Shown here in pieces: positions 2,679 to 22,383 of a stretch of DNA of 31,164 nucleotides (position 1 is the stretch's first letter; every line of letters begins with the position of its first letter). The notes beneath the pieces are model-generated. The model was given only the letters and a program-made list of their open reading frames with translations. It did no database searches and was not told where the DNA came from. The position numbers were made by a program, and so were the translations under genes. The stretch is from a virus. The stretch lies in IMG/VR virus record IMGVR_UViG_3300020166_000075, positions 1-31,164 of that record, one strand, 5' to 3'.

Positions 2679-2707
2679 TTGACAATTACCCTTAAAAGTG
2701 TTATTAT
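2679..2707 (+). promoter_or_regulatory. Sigma70 promoter P4, predicted leaderless
   Basis: TTGACA (2679-2684), 17-bp spacer, TATTAT (2702-2707), six bases, then ATG at 2714. The -35 begins exactly 35 bases before the ATG, so transcription should start at or next to the start codon. There is no CGAATC element and no ribosome binding site. Confidence 0.8.
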
Positions 2708-2713
2708 ATTATT

Positions 2714-8745: not shown

Positions 8746-9031
8746 AAGCAGAACAAAAGACTTGCTTGATAGACTTCGTAAGATTAGAGGTGAAGTGAGG
8801 GATAGGCGAAAGTTTTTCTCTGACTTTGATAACAAAGAGTTTCTAAAGTGGACTCCTGTATCTAAAGAAGGTATTAAGTTTGAAAAAGAAATTGTTCCGG
8901 GCAGCGGTGTTTTAACAGAATTGATTGACTGGTGCAACGACAATTGTAATGGATACTATGTAGCACATCGTGGAGATTTATTCTTTGAGGATGACAATGA
9001 TGCAGCAATGTTCATAATGGTATGGAAATGA
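8738..9031 (+). CDS. Hypothetical protein (97 aa)
   Basis: I choose ATG 8738, which overlaps the end of the previous gene by 8 bases and gives MNKSRTKDLLDRLRKIRGEV, a basic helix with phage-like character. Then come an acidic middle and a beta-rich end (GYYVAHRGDLFFEDDNDAAM). In-frame starts further upstream (8711, 8723) would lie deeper in the preceding gene. Function unknown. It couples to the next gene through an ATGA overlap at 9028. Confidence 0.65.
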   Translation: MNKSRTKDLLDRLRKIRGEVRDRRKFFSDFDNKEFLKWTPVSKEGIKFEKEIVPGSGVLTELIDWCNDNCNGYYVAHRGDLFFEDDNDAAMFIMVWK

Positions 9032-9615
9032 AAACTCAAACAGATATTGATATTGATGTACTGAACCGTGATGTAGTTCTAGAAAAACTGCCACACATTC
9101 CAGCATCTATCAATAAGAATGGTGTGTATACTAAGCACAATAGCGGAGTGTATGTACACGCTATTCCGCATGATCCTGCATCTAATCTAGCAAGCATTGA
9201 ATACAAAGAAGCAGAGGAACGCGGCTACTTCAAACTAGACTTTCTTAACAACTCATTATATGATGGGGTAAGAGACGAAGCACATTTGAATGACTTAATG
9301 GAACGTGAACCTGTTTGGGATCTATTTCAGCATCGGGAAGTCGTAGAGAATCTAGCGCACGTTTCTAACCACATCGATGTATTGCGAGTACTAAAGCCAC
9401 AAAGTGTTATGGAGCTTGCAGAGGTACTGGCTATTATTCGTCCAGCAAAAAGATATTTGCTGAATGAAACAAAGGAAGTAATCAAAGCAGAAGTATGGAC
9501 TAGGCCTTCAGGTGATGCTTACTATTTTAAAAAAGCACACGCTGTAGCGTATGCAGTAAGTATCGTAGTTCAGCTTAATCTATTTTGCGAACAAGTTGCA
9601 CAGAACGGCGCTTGA
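9028..9615 (+). CDS. Miniature DnaE (Pol III alpha)-like protein
   Basis: 195 residues. Several segments follow bacterial DNA polymerase III alpha in the right order. EERGYFKLDFLNNSLYD (64-80) resembles the palm GLlKfDfLG region. LKPQSVMELAEVLAIIRPAK (122-141) resembles the finger motif ending in ALyRPG. FKKAHAVAYAVSIVVQ (167-182) resembles the finger NKSHAvaYa helix. The PHP domain, the catalytic palm aspartates and the C-terminal domains are absent, so it is not a polymerase. It may be a DNA-binding or host-replisome-mimicking remnant. Start at 9028 gives an ATGA overlap; ATG 9022 is the alternative. Confidence 0.6.
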   Translation: MKTQTDIDIDVLNRDVVLEKLPHIPASINKNGVYTKHNSGVYVHAIPHDPASNLASIEYKEAEERGYFKLDFLNNSLYDGVRDEAHLNDLMEREPVWDLFQHREVVENLAHVSNHIDVLRVLKPQSVMELAEVLAIIRPAKRYLLNETKEVIKAEVWTRPSGDAYYFKKAHAVAYAVSIVVQLNLFCEQVAQNGA

Positions 9616-9964
9616 TACGTTTTTGAATAATATTATTCAGTGACGTTTCTGGTCCCCACATGATTTGCACATCTTTGGAATTCATATTAGTAATCCAGTT
9701 TTTATAAACTGAAATCTGTGAGCCCAAGAACAAGTTAATTGGTATAAGTCTATTTGACTCCCACCACCATTGTTCTCCAAGTTCGATAAACTCTTTTCGT
9801 AATTCTGGAGTTGGTATATCTTCGAAATTATACATAGAGGTAATAACATTGTCAGTATTAATTAAAATACCGATGTACTCACGGTATTCTTTTTTACCGT
9901 AACGCACACAAGAGAAGAACGGATAGTTCTCCTGCATCCATTTTACCTTTTCATCATCAATCAT
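9575..9964 (-). CDS. Minus-strand hypothetical protein (129 aa)
   Basis: A 129-residue protein starting MIDDEKVKWMQENYPFFSCV and ending in a basic tail (KRIKRRSVQLVRKID). The middle carries beta strands (YIGILINTDNVITSMYNF) and a tryptophan-rich WWWESNR. No recognised family. It converges with the plus-strand gene at 9028-9615 and overlaps its last 41 bases. A TATAAATA late box ends five bases before the ATG, so its mRNA may be leaderless. The frame and promoter together support it as a true gene. Confidence 0.65.
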   Translation of the reverse strand: MIDDEKVKWMQENYPFFSCVRYGKKEYREYIGILINTDNVITSMYNFEDIPTPELRKEFIELGEQWWWESNRLIPINLFLGSQISVYKNWITNMNSKDVQIMWGPETSLNNIIQKRIKRRSVQLVRKID

Positions 9965-9969
9965 ACTTA

Positions 9970-9977
9970 TATTTATA
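9970..9977 (-). promoter_or_regulatory. T4-type late promoter box, leaderless geometry
   Basis: TATAAATA on the minus strand, followed by five bases and ATGATT. In T4 the late box sits at about -13 to -6, which places the transcription start at the ATG of the gene ending at 9575. The box overlaps the stop codon of the upstream minus-strand gene. Confidence 0.65.
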
Positions 9978-10791
9978 CAACATTTAAATCGTTACTTTTT
10001 ATGAGTTCTAGTAATTCGTAGTACTTTGTTGGAGGATTTTTTAATTTATTCACTTTGCTATATATGTCATACCAATGTTCGTATATATCTGTTTTTTCTA
10101 AATTAAAAAAAGTATGTATTTTATCATCTAATAAATCACCGTGTGATATTATGTTGTTATCTTTTATGCCGGCACCTTTAATTAGCCACTTTGGAGACTC
10201 TAGTCTTCTTTTGGCATCTTCAATTATCGCATCGGTATCTTTATCATAGTGTATGTTTTTAACTGAATCAAAATATAAACTCCAAGCGGTGTCTTCTAGT
10301 GATTGATTAAATATCCAATATACGTGATCCCATTTATGGTTAAAAATTTCAGAAATATGGTGGTCTCTTTCTTTTAATATATTTTTAACTTCCCAGTATC
10401 TTTTGGTGCTAACTTCCCATGGGTCATGTGTTATTTGGATGTCAACGTTAGAATTTAGTGAATCGCTATCTAGATTCCTGTTCATGCGTTGCATGTTGTA
10501 TTCGTACTTTAAATATATCTCCCAATTAGTCTGCACCTTTAAACCTCTTTGTCTCTTATTGTCTAAATTAGTCCATCTTAGTAGATCCATCAATCTTGAA
10601 ACATTTGGATTTGGAACAACTTGTCCAGTCGGCATGATCTTAAATAGCCATTCAGAACCTAATCTCAGGTGATTATTTTGGTCTATGTATAAATCTTTAT
10701 CTGGGTTCTTTAAAATCCACAAACAGCTACGTAAGAAGTCCCCACCCGTAACTCCTTCGTAGTTTATTAGAATATTTTCTTTATTAATCAT
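9973..10791 (-). CDS. Minus-strand hypothetical protein (272 aa)
   Basis: I place the start at the ATG at 10791, five bases after a TATAAATA late box, rather than at the upstream in-frame ATG 10863, which would run through the divergent promoter. The protein begins MINKENILINYEGVTGGDFL. The GVTGGDFLRS turn followed by a helix faintly recalls a sulfotransferase P-loop, but without the usual RSGT signature. The body is rich in W, H and D (KWDHVYWIFNQSLEDTAW). Function unknown. The small gene downstream starts nine bases past its stop. Confidence 0.7.
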   Translation of the reverse strand: MINKENILINYEGVTGGDFLRSCLWILKNPDKDLYIDQNNHLRLGSEWLFKIMPTGQVVPNPNVSRLMDLLRWTNLDNKRQRGLKVQTNWEIYLKYEYNMQRMNRNLDSDSLNSNVDIQITHDPWEVSTKRYWEVKNILKERDHHISEIFNHKWDHVYWIFNQSLEDTAWSLYFDSVKNIHYDKDTDAIIEDAKRRLESPKWLIKGAGIKDNNIISHGDLLDDKIHTFFNLEKTDIYEHWYDIYSKVNKLKNPPTKYYELLELIKSNDLNVV

Positions 10792-10796
10792 ACCCA

Positions 10797-10804
10797 TATT
10801 TATA
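10797..10804 (-). promoter_or_regulatory. T4-type late promoter box, leaderless geometry
   Basis: TATAAATA on the minus strand, then TGGGT and ATGATTAAT. Same five-base spacing as the box at 9970-9977, predicting that the mRNA starts at the ATG. Confidence 0.65.
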
Positions 10805-10826
10805 GAAAAATTTAGTGCTCCTGGGA

Positions 10827-10834
10827 GATAAATA
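10827..10834 (+). promoter_or_regulatory. Late promoter box, leaderless geometry
   Basis: GATAAATA followed by CAACT and ATGATTAAT at 10840. The five-base spacing mirrors the divergent minus-strand box 23 bp away. GGGAG at 10823-10827 is too far (12 bases) and would lie upstream of the transcription start. Confidence 0.65.
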
Positions 10835-10839
10835 CAACT

Positions 10840-11640
10840 ATGATTAATTATAATGTATTTCAATATGAGCGAGAAATCGAAGTAGTGTGTTTGGACGGGA
10901 ACAACACCACTACTATGAACAACTACCTAGGAAACATGCCAATGTATGACGGAACACACAAACTACACAAGGGTATAGATAATACTCTTAGATTTAAAAT
11001 TAAAGATACAGATAGAAAACCAATTGACTTGACTAACAAGACAGTCATTTGGAAGATGTATGACCGTGAAAGTCGTGAAAACGTATTGTTCAGATATTTG
11101 ACTATTGAAAATGCAGAAAAAGGTATGTGTTCCCTAGTACTCCATGCTGCAGACCATATTATGTTACCAGAGGGATTTTATCAATTTGCGATGTATACGG
11201 TTGAAGACGGTGTAGAACAAATCATTTATACAGATGTAAATGATAATGCTAAAGGTACGATTGAAGTAATTGATGATGTTTATCCAGAGTTTGAAGATTC
11301 ACAAGAGACAACTACATTCTACGATGATGGTCAAAAGTATGTAACAACAGTATTCGACGGTAGTGGTAACACAATCAAGTCACGCTCACTTCATACGTTT
11401 GCTCTTTACTTTGATGGCTTTACAGGCGATGTAAACATTCAGGGCGATCTATCAGTTCAACCGAGTACAAACGATGATGATTGGTTCGACTTAACACCAG
11501 ACCTAGTATATGATCCTAACATTCGTATTAACAATGAAACAGGCGTGCAGGGTTACGTTGTACAAGCAAATGTAAACTGGATACGAATCTCTTACACGAA
11601 AACAGCTGGCGAAATTACTAAAGTACTTCTACGAAATTAA
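10840..11640 (+). CDS. Virion protein with BppU-like N-terminus
   Basis: A 266-residue beta-rich protein. Residues about 40-125 follow the layout of phage baseplate-upper-protein N-terminal domains: a strand IDNTLRFKIKDTDRKPIDL, then TVIWKMYDRES, a GMCSLVLHAADH strand and the LPEGFYQFAMYTV strand. The C-terminal half has short strands with WFDLTPDL and ends with NWIRISYTKTAGEITKVLL. Probably a tail or baseplate accessory protein. It stands alone between a divergent late promoter pair and early promoter P5, separate from the main structural region. Confidence 0.7.
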   Translation: MINYNVFQYEREIEVVCLDGNNTTTMNNYLGNMPMYDGTHKLHKGIDNTLRFKIKDTDRKPIDLTNKTVIWKMYDRESRENVLFRYLTIENAEKGMCSLVLHAADHIMLPEGFYQFAMYTVEDGVEQIIYTDVNDNAKGTIEVIDDVYPEFEDSQETTTFYDDGQKYVTTVFDGSGNTIKSRSLHTFALYFDGFTGDVNIQGDLSVQPSTNDDDWFDLTPDLVYDPNIRINNETGVQGYVVQANVNWIRISYTKTAGEITKVLLRN

Positions 11641-11643
11641 TAC

Positions 11644-11671
11644 TTGACAATATAGCGAATCGTGTTATCTT
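11644..11671 (+). promoter_or_regulatory. Early sigma70 promoter P5 with palindromic leader
   Basis: TTGACA (11644-11649), 16-bp spacer, TATCTT (11666-11671), CGAATC at 11656-11661, extended -10 TG. The 8-bp inverted repeat ATTATTGA/TCAATAAT at 11673-11689 lies just after the -10 and could be an operator. It replaces the common leader found at sister promoters. Confidence 0.8.
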
Positions 11672-11701
11672 TATTATTGAATCAATAATAGGGATAATAA
11701 A

Positions 11702-12013
11702 ATGCTAGACAATCAAAAACCTGCTTATATCGTAACTGAACCTGCTCTCACATCACTTCACACATCACAACTTTTAACACAACAAGAACACGTCACAGCA
11801 AGACGTGTGTGGGGAGAATATGCATTCAATGTCGAAGCATATGATGAAGAACTGTATTCAAAACTATTCAATGAATATGTAATGAGTGACGAATTCAAAA
11901 ATCGTGACTTTGTAATCGAGCGTTTAAATCAACCTGATTATATATCAGCACATAAAAAGTTCTATGAACAAATGATGTCAAATGAAGATAACTTGTACGA
12001 TGAAATATCTTGA
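11702..12013 (+). CDS. Hypothetical early protein (103 aa)
   Basis: ATG 11702 follows TAGGGATAATAAA. The product begins MLDNQKPAYIVTEPALTSL and is otherwise helical and acidic, with a helix-rich C-terminus (SAHKKFYEQMMSNEDNLYDE). No family recognised. Its TGA stop is embedded in the TTGACA of the next promoter. It forms a single-gene unit. Confidence 0.7.
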   Translation: MLDNQKPAYIVTEPALTSLHTSQLLTQQEHVTARRVWGEYAFNVEAYDEELYSKLFNEYVMSDEFKNRDFVIERLNQPDYISAHKKFYEQMMSNEDNLYDEIS

Positions 12014-14489: not shown

Positions 14490-15161
14490 ATGAAACTAAA
14501 CACTTCATATACAGTAGCAGATGATAAGGTTCTCTATGAATCTAATGGTAGTCTTACATCACACATCAATGGGGGAGTAACATGTTGCTTCCCCGGATGC
14601 TCTCATAGACCTAAGGTTGTTCCTGGTGAAATGGATGTCAACACGGGTGATAAACTCTACCGTTCATTATGTGAAATCCACGAAGAAGTGTTTGCAGTGG
14701 CGAAACCTACACAATGGGGTAAACTAAAAAAGTACTATGAACTTTGGGATAGAAGTTCGATATTGTTGAATGCTATGAATGCGAACATCAAAATATGGCC
14801 TAGATATACAAAGGAATGGCTTTATACTGTATTTTATCCTGCGTTACAAGAACAGATTGATTCTGGTGATTTAGAACTAGCATATAATACAGCACGAGGA
14901 TTGCGTTGTGTATTTGATTGTGACCACATTCTAGGTAATAAAGATTATGGAGACGAGTTTATTGTTCCGTTGGACAAAGCTATGCACAGCGTTAAATCAA
15001 CCTTACTTGGAGACAATATTAAGAATTCGAATACACATACAAAAGCTACCCAGCTTTATAACTATCTGACAGATGATGTTTTGCAAGAAATGGAACTTGA
15101 CTATACACAAGAAGACTTATATAATGCATTGACAAGCAAGGTACAATCTGCTATAGTATAG
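14490..15161 (+). CDS. Putative zinc-binding protein (223 aa)
   Basis: 223 residues. N-terminal Cys/His pattern TCCFPGCSHRP followed by SLCEIHEE looks like a four-ligand zinc site (C-x3-C, then C-x2-H). A second pair, CVFDCDH, lies around residue 140. The rest is helical and tryptophan/tyrosine-rich. Position directly before primase suggests a nucleic-acid-related role, but no named family is recognised. Its last 30 bases contain promoter P11 for the primase. Confidence 0.7.
   Translation: MKLNTSYTVADDKVLYESNGSLTSHINGGVTCCFPGCSHRPKVVPGEMDVNTGDKLYRSLCEIHEEVFAVAKPTQWGKLKKYYELWDRSSILLNAMNANIKIWPRYTKEWLYTVFYPALQEQIDSGDLELAYNTARGLRCVFDCDHILGNKDYGDEFIVPLDKAMHSVKSTLLGDNIKNSNTHTKATQLYNYLTDDVLQEMELDYTQEDLYNALTSKVQSAIV
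15129..15157 (+). promoter_or_regulatory. Sigma70 promoter P11 inside a gene, predicted leaderless
   Basis: TTGACA (15129-15134), 17-bp spacer, TATAGT (15152-15157), six bases, ATG at 15164. Same 35-base geometry as P4, P9 and P10. It lies within the last codons of the upstream gene. The primase has no ribosome site. Confidence 0.75.
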
Positions 15162-15163
15162 TT

Positions 15164-17347: not shown

Positions 17348-17376
17348 TTGACAATGTAACCATTTTTTGATATAGT
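17348..17376 (+). promoter_or_regulatory. Sigma70 promoter P9, predicted leaderless
   Basis: TTGACA (17348-17353), 17-bp spacer, TATAGT (17371-17376), six bases GAGAGA, ATG at 17383. Same geometry as P4, P10 and P11. GAGAGA touches the ATG directly, too close to work as a ribosome site. Confidence 0.8.
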
Positions 17377-17382
17377 GAGAGA

Positions 17383-18792
17383 ATGTCAGAAGTAAAAAAT
17401 TATAGCCCCGATTTACAACAACTGTTCGTACAGTTCATGTTTAGTGATCCAGAACTTTATTCAAGAGTTCGGAGTATCATTAAGCCTGAATACTTTGACC
17501 GCAGCGTCCGTCCTGTGGTAAAGCAGTTAATCGCACACAGTGATGAATATTCATCTATCCCAAGTCTTGAAATGGTTAAGGCAGAAACGGGAGTGACTGT
17601 AGAGAAACTGGATAACATCGACCAGCATATCGAATGGTTTGTTGATGAATTTGAAACATTCTGCCGACATAAGGCTATTGAGAAGGCTATTATCGATAGT
17701 GCTGATTTGTTGGAGACTGGCAAATACGGTGAAGTAGAACTTAGAATCAAGGAAGCAGTTCAAACCGGACTGGCACGTTCATTGGGTACAGATTATTTTG
17801 CTGACCCTAGAGGTGTATTGGAAGGACTGAAAAACGATAACGGTCAAATGACTACAGGCTGGAAAGCCCTTGATGATAAGCTATATGGTGGCATTAATCG
17901 TGGGGAGATCACGATTTTTGCAGGAGGCTCTGGCGCAGGCAAATCTCTATTCATGCAAAATATGAGCCTGAATTGGGCAGAGGCTGGTCTTAATTGTGTC
18001 TACATCACTCTGGAACTTTCGGAATCGCTTTCATCGATGCGTATGTATGCAATGCAGACGGACAGAAGTACAAAAGGCATCTTTAAAAGTTTGGACGAAG
18101 TGGAACTGATGGTCAAAGCAAAAGGTAAACAGTCCGGACAGCTTAGAATCAAATATCTCCCATCAGGGTCAAGCGTTAATGACATTAGGTCATATCTGAA
18201 AGAGTTACAAATCCAGACAGGTAAGAAGGTCGATTGTTTGTGCGTTGACTATCTCGACCTTCTTACTCCTGCGACTATGAAAGTACAAGCAGGTGATACT
18301 TATACTAAAGACAAATACGTAACAGAAGAAATGCGTAACTTCGCTATGGAGACTGGTTCTGTGTTAGTAACAGCATCACAGTTGAACCGTAGTGCAGTTG
18401 AAGAAATTGAATTTGATCACTCGCACATCGCTGGTGGTATCTCTAAAATTCAAACAGCAGATAACGTGATTGGTATCTTTACATCTAACGCTATGCGTGA
18501 ACGTGGACAGTATCAACTACAGCTTCTAAAAACTCGTTCATCTAGTGGTGTAGGTAGTAAGGTAAATCTCGTATTCGATAGAGATAGTTTGCGTATCTCA
18601 GATGATACAAGTGAAAATTCAGACAACAATATTACTAGTTCAGGTACGTCAAGTGTAGTGGATCAACTACGCAAAAAGACAACTGTAACTAAAGAAGAAG
18701 ATGATACTCCAGTAATGGATAAAGGCCAAGCCGCATCATCTCTTAGAGCAATGCTCAAAACTAAGTCTCGTTCCGCTTTTGACGAAACTTGA
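17383..18792 (+). CDS. 41: Replicative DNA helicase, gp41/DnaB-like
   Basis: A 469-residue RecA-fold helicase that unwinds DNA at the fork and works with primase. The N-terminal domain (1-130) is helical, a linker follows, and the ATPase core carries Walker A GGSGAGKS (181-188), Walker B CVDYLDLL (287-294) and later ASQLNR and LKTRSSSGVGSKVNL. Length fits T4 gp41 (about 475). The tail is Ser/Thr-rich. It is preceded by a leaderless-type promoter. A late promoter box begins in its stop codon, so early and late transcription meet here. Confidence 0.93.
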   Translation: MSEVKNYSPDLQQLFVQFMFSDPELYSRVRSIIKPEYFDRSVRPVVKQLIAHSDEYSSIPSLEMVKAETGVTVEKLDNIDQHIEWFVDEFETFCRHKAIEKAIIDSADLLETGKYGEVELRIKEAVQTGLARSLGTDYFADPRGVLEGLKNDNGQMTTGWKALDDKLYGGINRGEITIFAGGSGAGKSLFMQNMSLNWAEAGLNCVYITLELSESLSSMRMYAMQTDRSTKGIFKSLDEVELMVKAKGKQSGQLRIKYLPSGSSVNDIRSYLKELQIQTGKKVDCLCVDYLDLLTPATMKVQAGDTYTKDKYVTEEMRNFAMETGSVLVTASQLNRSAVEEIEFDHSHIAGGISKIQTADNVIGIFTSNAMRERGQYQLQLLKTRSSSGVGSKVNLVFDRDSLRISDDTSENSDNNITSSGTSSVVDQLRKKTTVTKEEDDTPVMDKGQAASSLRAMLKTKSRSAFDET

Positions 18793-18798
18793 TAAATA
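18791..18798 (+). promoter_or_regulatory. Late promoter box
   Basis: GATAAATA followed by C, 21 bases before the ATG at 18820; GGAG lies in between. The box begins inside the helicase TGA stop. It opens the late operon 18820-22363. Confidence 0.8.
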
Positions 18799-22375: not shown

Positions 22376-22383
22376 GATAAATA
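22376..22383 (+). promoter_or_regulatory. Late promoter box
   Basis: GATAAATA followed by ATAG, 47 bases before ATG 22431. A 5-bp hairpin lies just after the predicted transcription start. Confidence 0.75.

Follow-up and report, generated by a model that had tools for sequence, protein, structure and literature searches.

The locus and its relatives

The stretch of DNA analyzed here (hereafter, the window) is a 31-kb viral fragment from IMG/VR (31,164 nucleotides), which, judging from its proteins, belongs close to the jumbo phages PA5oct, Atu_ph07, 121Q and Phosso, and it is syntenic with these phages with respect to a DnaE-like gene, an inverted gene of PHROG 11637, a structural gene, the primase and the helicase. 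Three genes are the focus of this analysis. The first, on the minus strand (9575..9964), encodes a 129-aa PHROG 11637 protein and is the conserved inverted gene between the DnaE-like and structural genes. The last, on the plus strand (10840..11640), encodes a 266-aa virion structural protein (PHROG 14467), the PA5oct orthologue of which has been detected in virions by mass spectrometry. Between the two, a minus-strand gene (9973..10791), here called the cargo gene, encodes a 272-aa protein with a weak sulfotransferase-like fold and is absent from most relatives. The 129-aa protein, whose gene is always inverted at that place across jumbo phages, contains a WWW motif that does not vary and a tail of basic character (KRIKRR), and matched no known fold in a fold comparison.

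A DNA-level search of GenBank phages with positions 9000-12000 of the window gave no match, and the structural protein had no relative among the GTDB genomes scanned; 65 relatives were recovered from viral contigs, some of them on contigs of 150-340 kb. The group is one of large marine phages that are distantly related to T4.

Late boxes adjacent to start codons

Each of the three genes is preceded by a NATAAATA box that ends exactly 5 nt ahead of the ATG, with sequence and coordinates as claimed in an earlier note on this DNA: TATAAATA at 9977-9970 on the minus strand, with the spacer taagt, before ATG 9964; TATAAATA at 10804-10797, likewise on the minus strand, with the spacer tgggt, before ATG 10791; and GATAAATA at 10827-10834 on the plus strand, with the spacer caact, before ATG 10840. 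The window contains 12 occurrences of NATAAATA, namely, these 3 at spacing 5, 1 that is intragenic (7278), and the rest at 21-52 nt from a start codon, the range already ascribed to them; most of the genes with such leaders carry AGGA or GGAG 4-8 nt before the ATG. For comparison, the GATAAATA box at 18791..18798 on the plus strand stands 21 nt before ATG 18820, which has a GGAG site, and further leadered boxes are located at 22376, 22748, 23328, 23350, 25320, 28034 and 30634, the gap between the 25320 box and the next gene being about 32 nt, assuming that the in-frame ATG 25360 is the start of that gene. Against a chance control of 31 permuted or compositionally similar AT-rich 7-mers, 3 spacing-5 sites were observed in the window vs 0.03 expected (Poisson P about 5e-6). 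Given that TATAAATA by itself is no more frequent in the window than expected (2 occurrences vs 3.8), the signal lies in the placement of the motif and not in its number.

Conservation of the spacing

The expectation that relatives conserve the distance from box to ATG holds throughout for the structural gene: GATAAATA-N5-ATG is present in 63 of the 63 loci that have upstream sequence (the window included), which represent 31 distinct upstreams with 7 different spacers. In PA5oct, the orthologue, which aligns with 29% identity, also has a spacing of 5 (TATAAATA-CGTGT-ATG), and 5 is likewise the spacing for the cargo gene. For the 129-aa gene, the spacing among distinct upstreams is 5 in 15, 6 in 15 and 8 in one, and some of the orthologues carry boxes of the sequence CTAAATA, which has been predicted to serve as the late box in phage Aeh1 (PMC1524935). 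The start codons of these genes are backed by protein alignments. The ATG-to-ATG distance between the structural gene and its divergent neighbor is 44-54 nt across most relatives; this distance varies while that from box to ATG is constant, and therefore, indels appear to be tolerated between the two ATGs, but not between a box and its ATG. In leadered late genes, the box distance drifts among orthologues (for example, 46/48/48/54/60/47). For many of the genes with a box at spacing 5, which we call leaderless in accordance with the interpretation developed below, the leaderless state is labile.

The divergent promoter and the cargo site

The cargo gene of the window is bracketed by two copies of a direct repeat, each encompassing a start codon and promoter (9956..9980 on one side and 10783..10807 on the other, with a 21/25 match), whereas locus L003 has the direct repeat in a single copy. 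An extra minus-strand gene lies between the divergent genes in the window, L026, L035 and L040/L042. The inserts in L035 and L040/L042 encode homologues of the 272-aa protein of the window, the insert in L026 encodes an unrelated protein with an SGNH-hydrolase-like N-terminus (as judged by eye), and every inserted cargo gene carries its own box-N5-ATG. Nothing was recovered when the 272-aa protein was searched for by pattern, and its homologues came up only at this same site.

In L035 and L040, the divergent boxes overlap (TATTTAGATAAATA), with 24 nt from ATG to ATG, and in the Pelagibacter phage HTVC008M, gp2 and gp4 form another close divergent pair (26 nt). At G001:C1:3117-3144, the 12-bp sequence TATTTATAAATA amounts to two overlapping divergent late boxes for two genes with 22 nt between the ATGs; one of these genes appears, by eye, to be radical-SAM-like. 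Overall, an opposite-strand neighbor was found for 17 of the 49 leaderless genes vs 45 of the 253 leadered ones (P = 0.01, with the caveat that related genomes are not independent). Divergent placement was rejected as the whole explanation because this excess is only modest and most leaderless genes lack an opposite-strand neighbor.

A gene class in several phage genomes

The class is not peculiar to this island, because spacing-5 genes occur genome-wide in relatives; it does stand apart from the leadered late genes, as had been proposed, with a spike at exactly 5 and, in several genomes, hardly any genes at 6-19. In the box-to-ATG histograms of two 342-kb relatives, the distance is exactly 5 in 11 genes (G001) and 8 genes (G005), the interval of 6-19 nt is almost empty, and 49-58 genes fall at 20-59; the controls yield 0.4-0.6 expected genes at spacing 5 (P = 5e-13 for G001 and 3e-7 for G005). 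HTVC008M has 9 genes at spacing 5 (P = 3e-11), Mosig 6, Melnitz 3, and Rhizobium phage RHph_I1_18 3. Only 2 such genes were detected in PA5oct, not a significant number for a class; none of the 65 boxes of T4 lies 5 nt before an ORF start; and among Syn9, KVP40 and P-SSM2, all three of which, like some contigs, were scanned in part, the first two have no spacing-5 genes and the third has 1.

The annotations of HTVC008M, Mosig and Melnitz independently support the spacing-5 start codons. In HTVC008M, the independently annotated starts at this spacing include those of the tape measure, the DNA end protector, the baseplate tail-tube cap, the baseplate wedge and other proteins, and the gene for the DNA end protector has box-N5-ATG in all three phages. 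In PA5oct (NC_071039, minus strand, about 180252-180267), a box-N5-ATG lies some 15 nt downstream of the start annotated for gp213, and judged by this rule, that annotation is probably wrong. In several leaderless genes, the N-terminus is of the MKI-EI--E or MRYSELTE-like kind and recalls the capsid-targeting sequences of T4 (L073-L108 in G001 and G005, L109-L123 in PA5oct, and L220-L228); leaderless genes are not significantly enriched in such N-termini (9/50 vs 29/284, P = 0.14).

Promoter type and translation signals

The T4 late box occupies positions -13 to -6 relative to the transcription start (PMC1524935), which puts +1 at the sixth base past the box; at spacing 5, this base is predicted to be the A of the ATG. 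The assignment of the boxes in the earlier note to T4-type late promoters with such a start is supported, at the level of sequence, by the spacing, by the gp55 homologue and by the purine at the sixth base. In the leadered late promoters of the clade, the sixth base past the box is A in 59% and G in 15% of the cases (a purine in about 74%), and the base before it is a pyrimidine in 60%; T4, HTVC008M and PA5oct likewise favor A at the sixth base. The flanks are common to leaderless and leadered boxes, the box being followed by C in the clade and by GT in HTVC008M, and because these clade-specific flanks are shared, the two kinds of boxes look like one promoter type. A gp55-type late sigma (PHROG 234) was matched in G001, G005, G007, G008 and PA5oct; 4 of the 6 relatives searched encode this sigma, the 2 without a match are fragments, and the window, itself a fragment, is not expected to carry the gene.

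The leaderless starts are ATG only, with no GTG or TTG at spacing 5 in the window clade or in HTVC008M. Shine-Dalgarno (SD) sequences of 4 nt or more precede 5 of the 27 leaderless genes vs 133 of the 179 leadered ones. With respect to A-rich downstream codons, leaderless genes show no difference.

Sigma70-type promoters at start codons

The sigma70-type pattern used for the window was TTGACA-17-TATNNT. On the plus strand, TTGACA-17-TATAGT ends 6 nt before the ATG of the primase gene (promoter at 15129..15163, ATG 15164) and 6 nt before that of the helicase gene (17348..17382, ATG 17383), and TTGACA-17-TATTAT ends 6 nt before ATG 2714 (2679..2713). An excess of sigma70-type promoters at 6 nt before ATG is apparent in several relatives as well. 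For the primase, the distance of 6 is kept in 26 of the 29 distinct relatives that have the promoter, and for the helicase, in 13 upstreams, with another sub-clade that appears to use a leadered start; the arrangement at ATG 2714 is unsupported in both relatives examined. Because this placement would put +1 on the ATG of the primase and helicase, the trait does not seem to be late-specific. These early replication genes also appear to be leaderless, these phages seem to resort to leaderless initiation as a general habit, and the observations suggest that the hosts translate leaderless mRNAs well.

Discussion

It appears highly likely (with a probability of roughly 0.85) that the three genes of the window are leaderless late genes, the transcription of which would start on the A of the ATG via a gp55-type sigma. 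The T4-type late sigma would bring the host RNA polymerase to NATAAATA, and, given a box at -13 to -6, transcription would begin on the A of the ATG, giving rise to an mRNA with a 5'-terminal AUG and no SD leader, on which ribosomes would start directly by AUG-dependent leaderless initiation. What we infer here is the start site, the leaderless mode of translation and the benefit. One likely benefit is the very compact divergent promoter, with 22-54 nt between two ATGs, a compactness that is visible in the sequence; another could be strictly late expression, with the ATGs silent until the late promoters fire, because in read-through RNA, the same ATG would be internal and lack a good ribosome-binding site.

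Among the competing explanations, the most resilient, although improbable in our assessment, is that the boxes are late promoters, yet the main mRNA comes from a promoter farther upstream or has a short leader, and a weak upstream SD is used, such as the GGGAG 12 nt before ATG 10840. Many relatives, although not all, retain GGGAG or GGAAG, and the spacings of 6 (in about half of the distinct upstreams) and 8 in some orthologues of the 9964 gene are compatible with this possibility; however, the motif is missing in L018, L019, L026, L035 and L040, all of which retain the spacing, GGGAG is too distant from the ATG for the usual SD, and both the genome-wide spike at exactly 5 and the confinement of the starts to ATG would be left unexplained. 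Less plausible still is that the inverted repeat ATTAATCATA/TATGATTAAT of the divergent starts functions as an operator or RNA element, with the spacing as its by-product. The repeat reported in the earlier note is real in the window, with 10/10 matching positions, but is incidental, existing because both genes begin Met-Ile-Asn: it is poorly kept in relatives (4-9/10), on which ground the operator was rejected, and most leaderless genes elsewhere are not divergent, 32 of 50 having their upstream neighbor on the same strand. Chance adjacency of AT-rich words and ATG, with which the ordinary abundance of TATAAATA in the window would agree, is refuted by the probabilities calculated above for the window and for the 342-kb relative G001 along with the conservation in 63/63 loci.

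Beyond the leaderless transcription of late genes, one could speculate on a second translation channel, in which leaderless expression would be deliberate both for early replication genes, by way of sigma70-type promoters, and for late genes of structure and cargo, by way of gp55-type promoters, and in which the initiation machinery would be altered during infection, through a change encoded by phage or host, so as to favor the 5'-terminal AUG over SD. This idea seems doubtful to us, but should it be true, promoter choice alone would set both the mode and the timing of translation.

The likeness to the T4 late promoters (gp55/gp33/gp45) extends to the box sequence, the inferred distance to +1, the gp55 homologue in relatives and the replication-linked phage context; unlike the window clade, however, T4 lacks spacing-5 boxes, and in the clade, the box mostly begins with G. 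Leaderless mRNAs and T4 late promoters are each well known, and what appears to be new, not having been found in the open literature, is a recurrent gene class that combines the two. Leaderless transcripts of phage genes include those of lambda cI and of the Thermus phage phiYS40, but these involve other phages, hosts and promoters, without a T4-type late box. In Sinorhizobium meliloti, 171 leaderless mRNAs, all AUG-initial, have been identified (PMC3616915). Such bacterial leaderless mRNAs resemble those proposed here in having the promoter directly before the ATG, ATG as the only start codon and no SD, but in the present case, a phage late sigma would be at work and membership in the class is tied to particular phage genes. 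HTVC008M, Mosig and Melnitz (Kyanoviridae) share the same NATAAATA-N5-ATG class, although they are distant from the jumbo clade of the window, have it mostly in other genes, and extend the box with GT instead of C. No description of leaderless T4-type late genes was found in the searchable open-licence literature, which is incomplete.

These observations indicate that in marine phages, those of SAR11 hosts among them, T4-type late transcription can give rise to a stable class of leaderless mRNAs that is specific to certain genes. The NATAAATA-N5-ATG arrangement provides a simple rule for correcting start annotations and predicting late timing, and cultivated pairs of phage and host, for example, HTVC008M on Pelagibacter, make it possible to test the biological role of leaderless translation directly.
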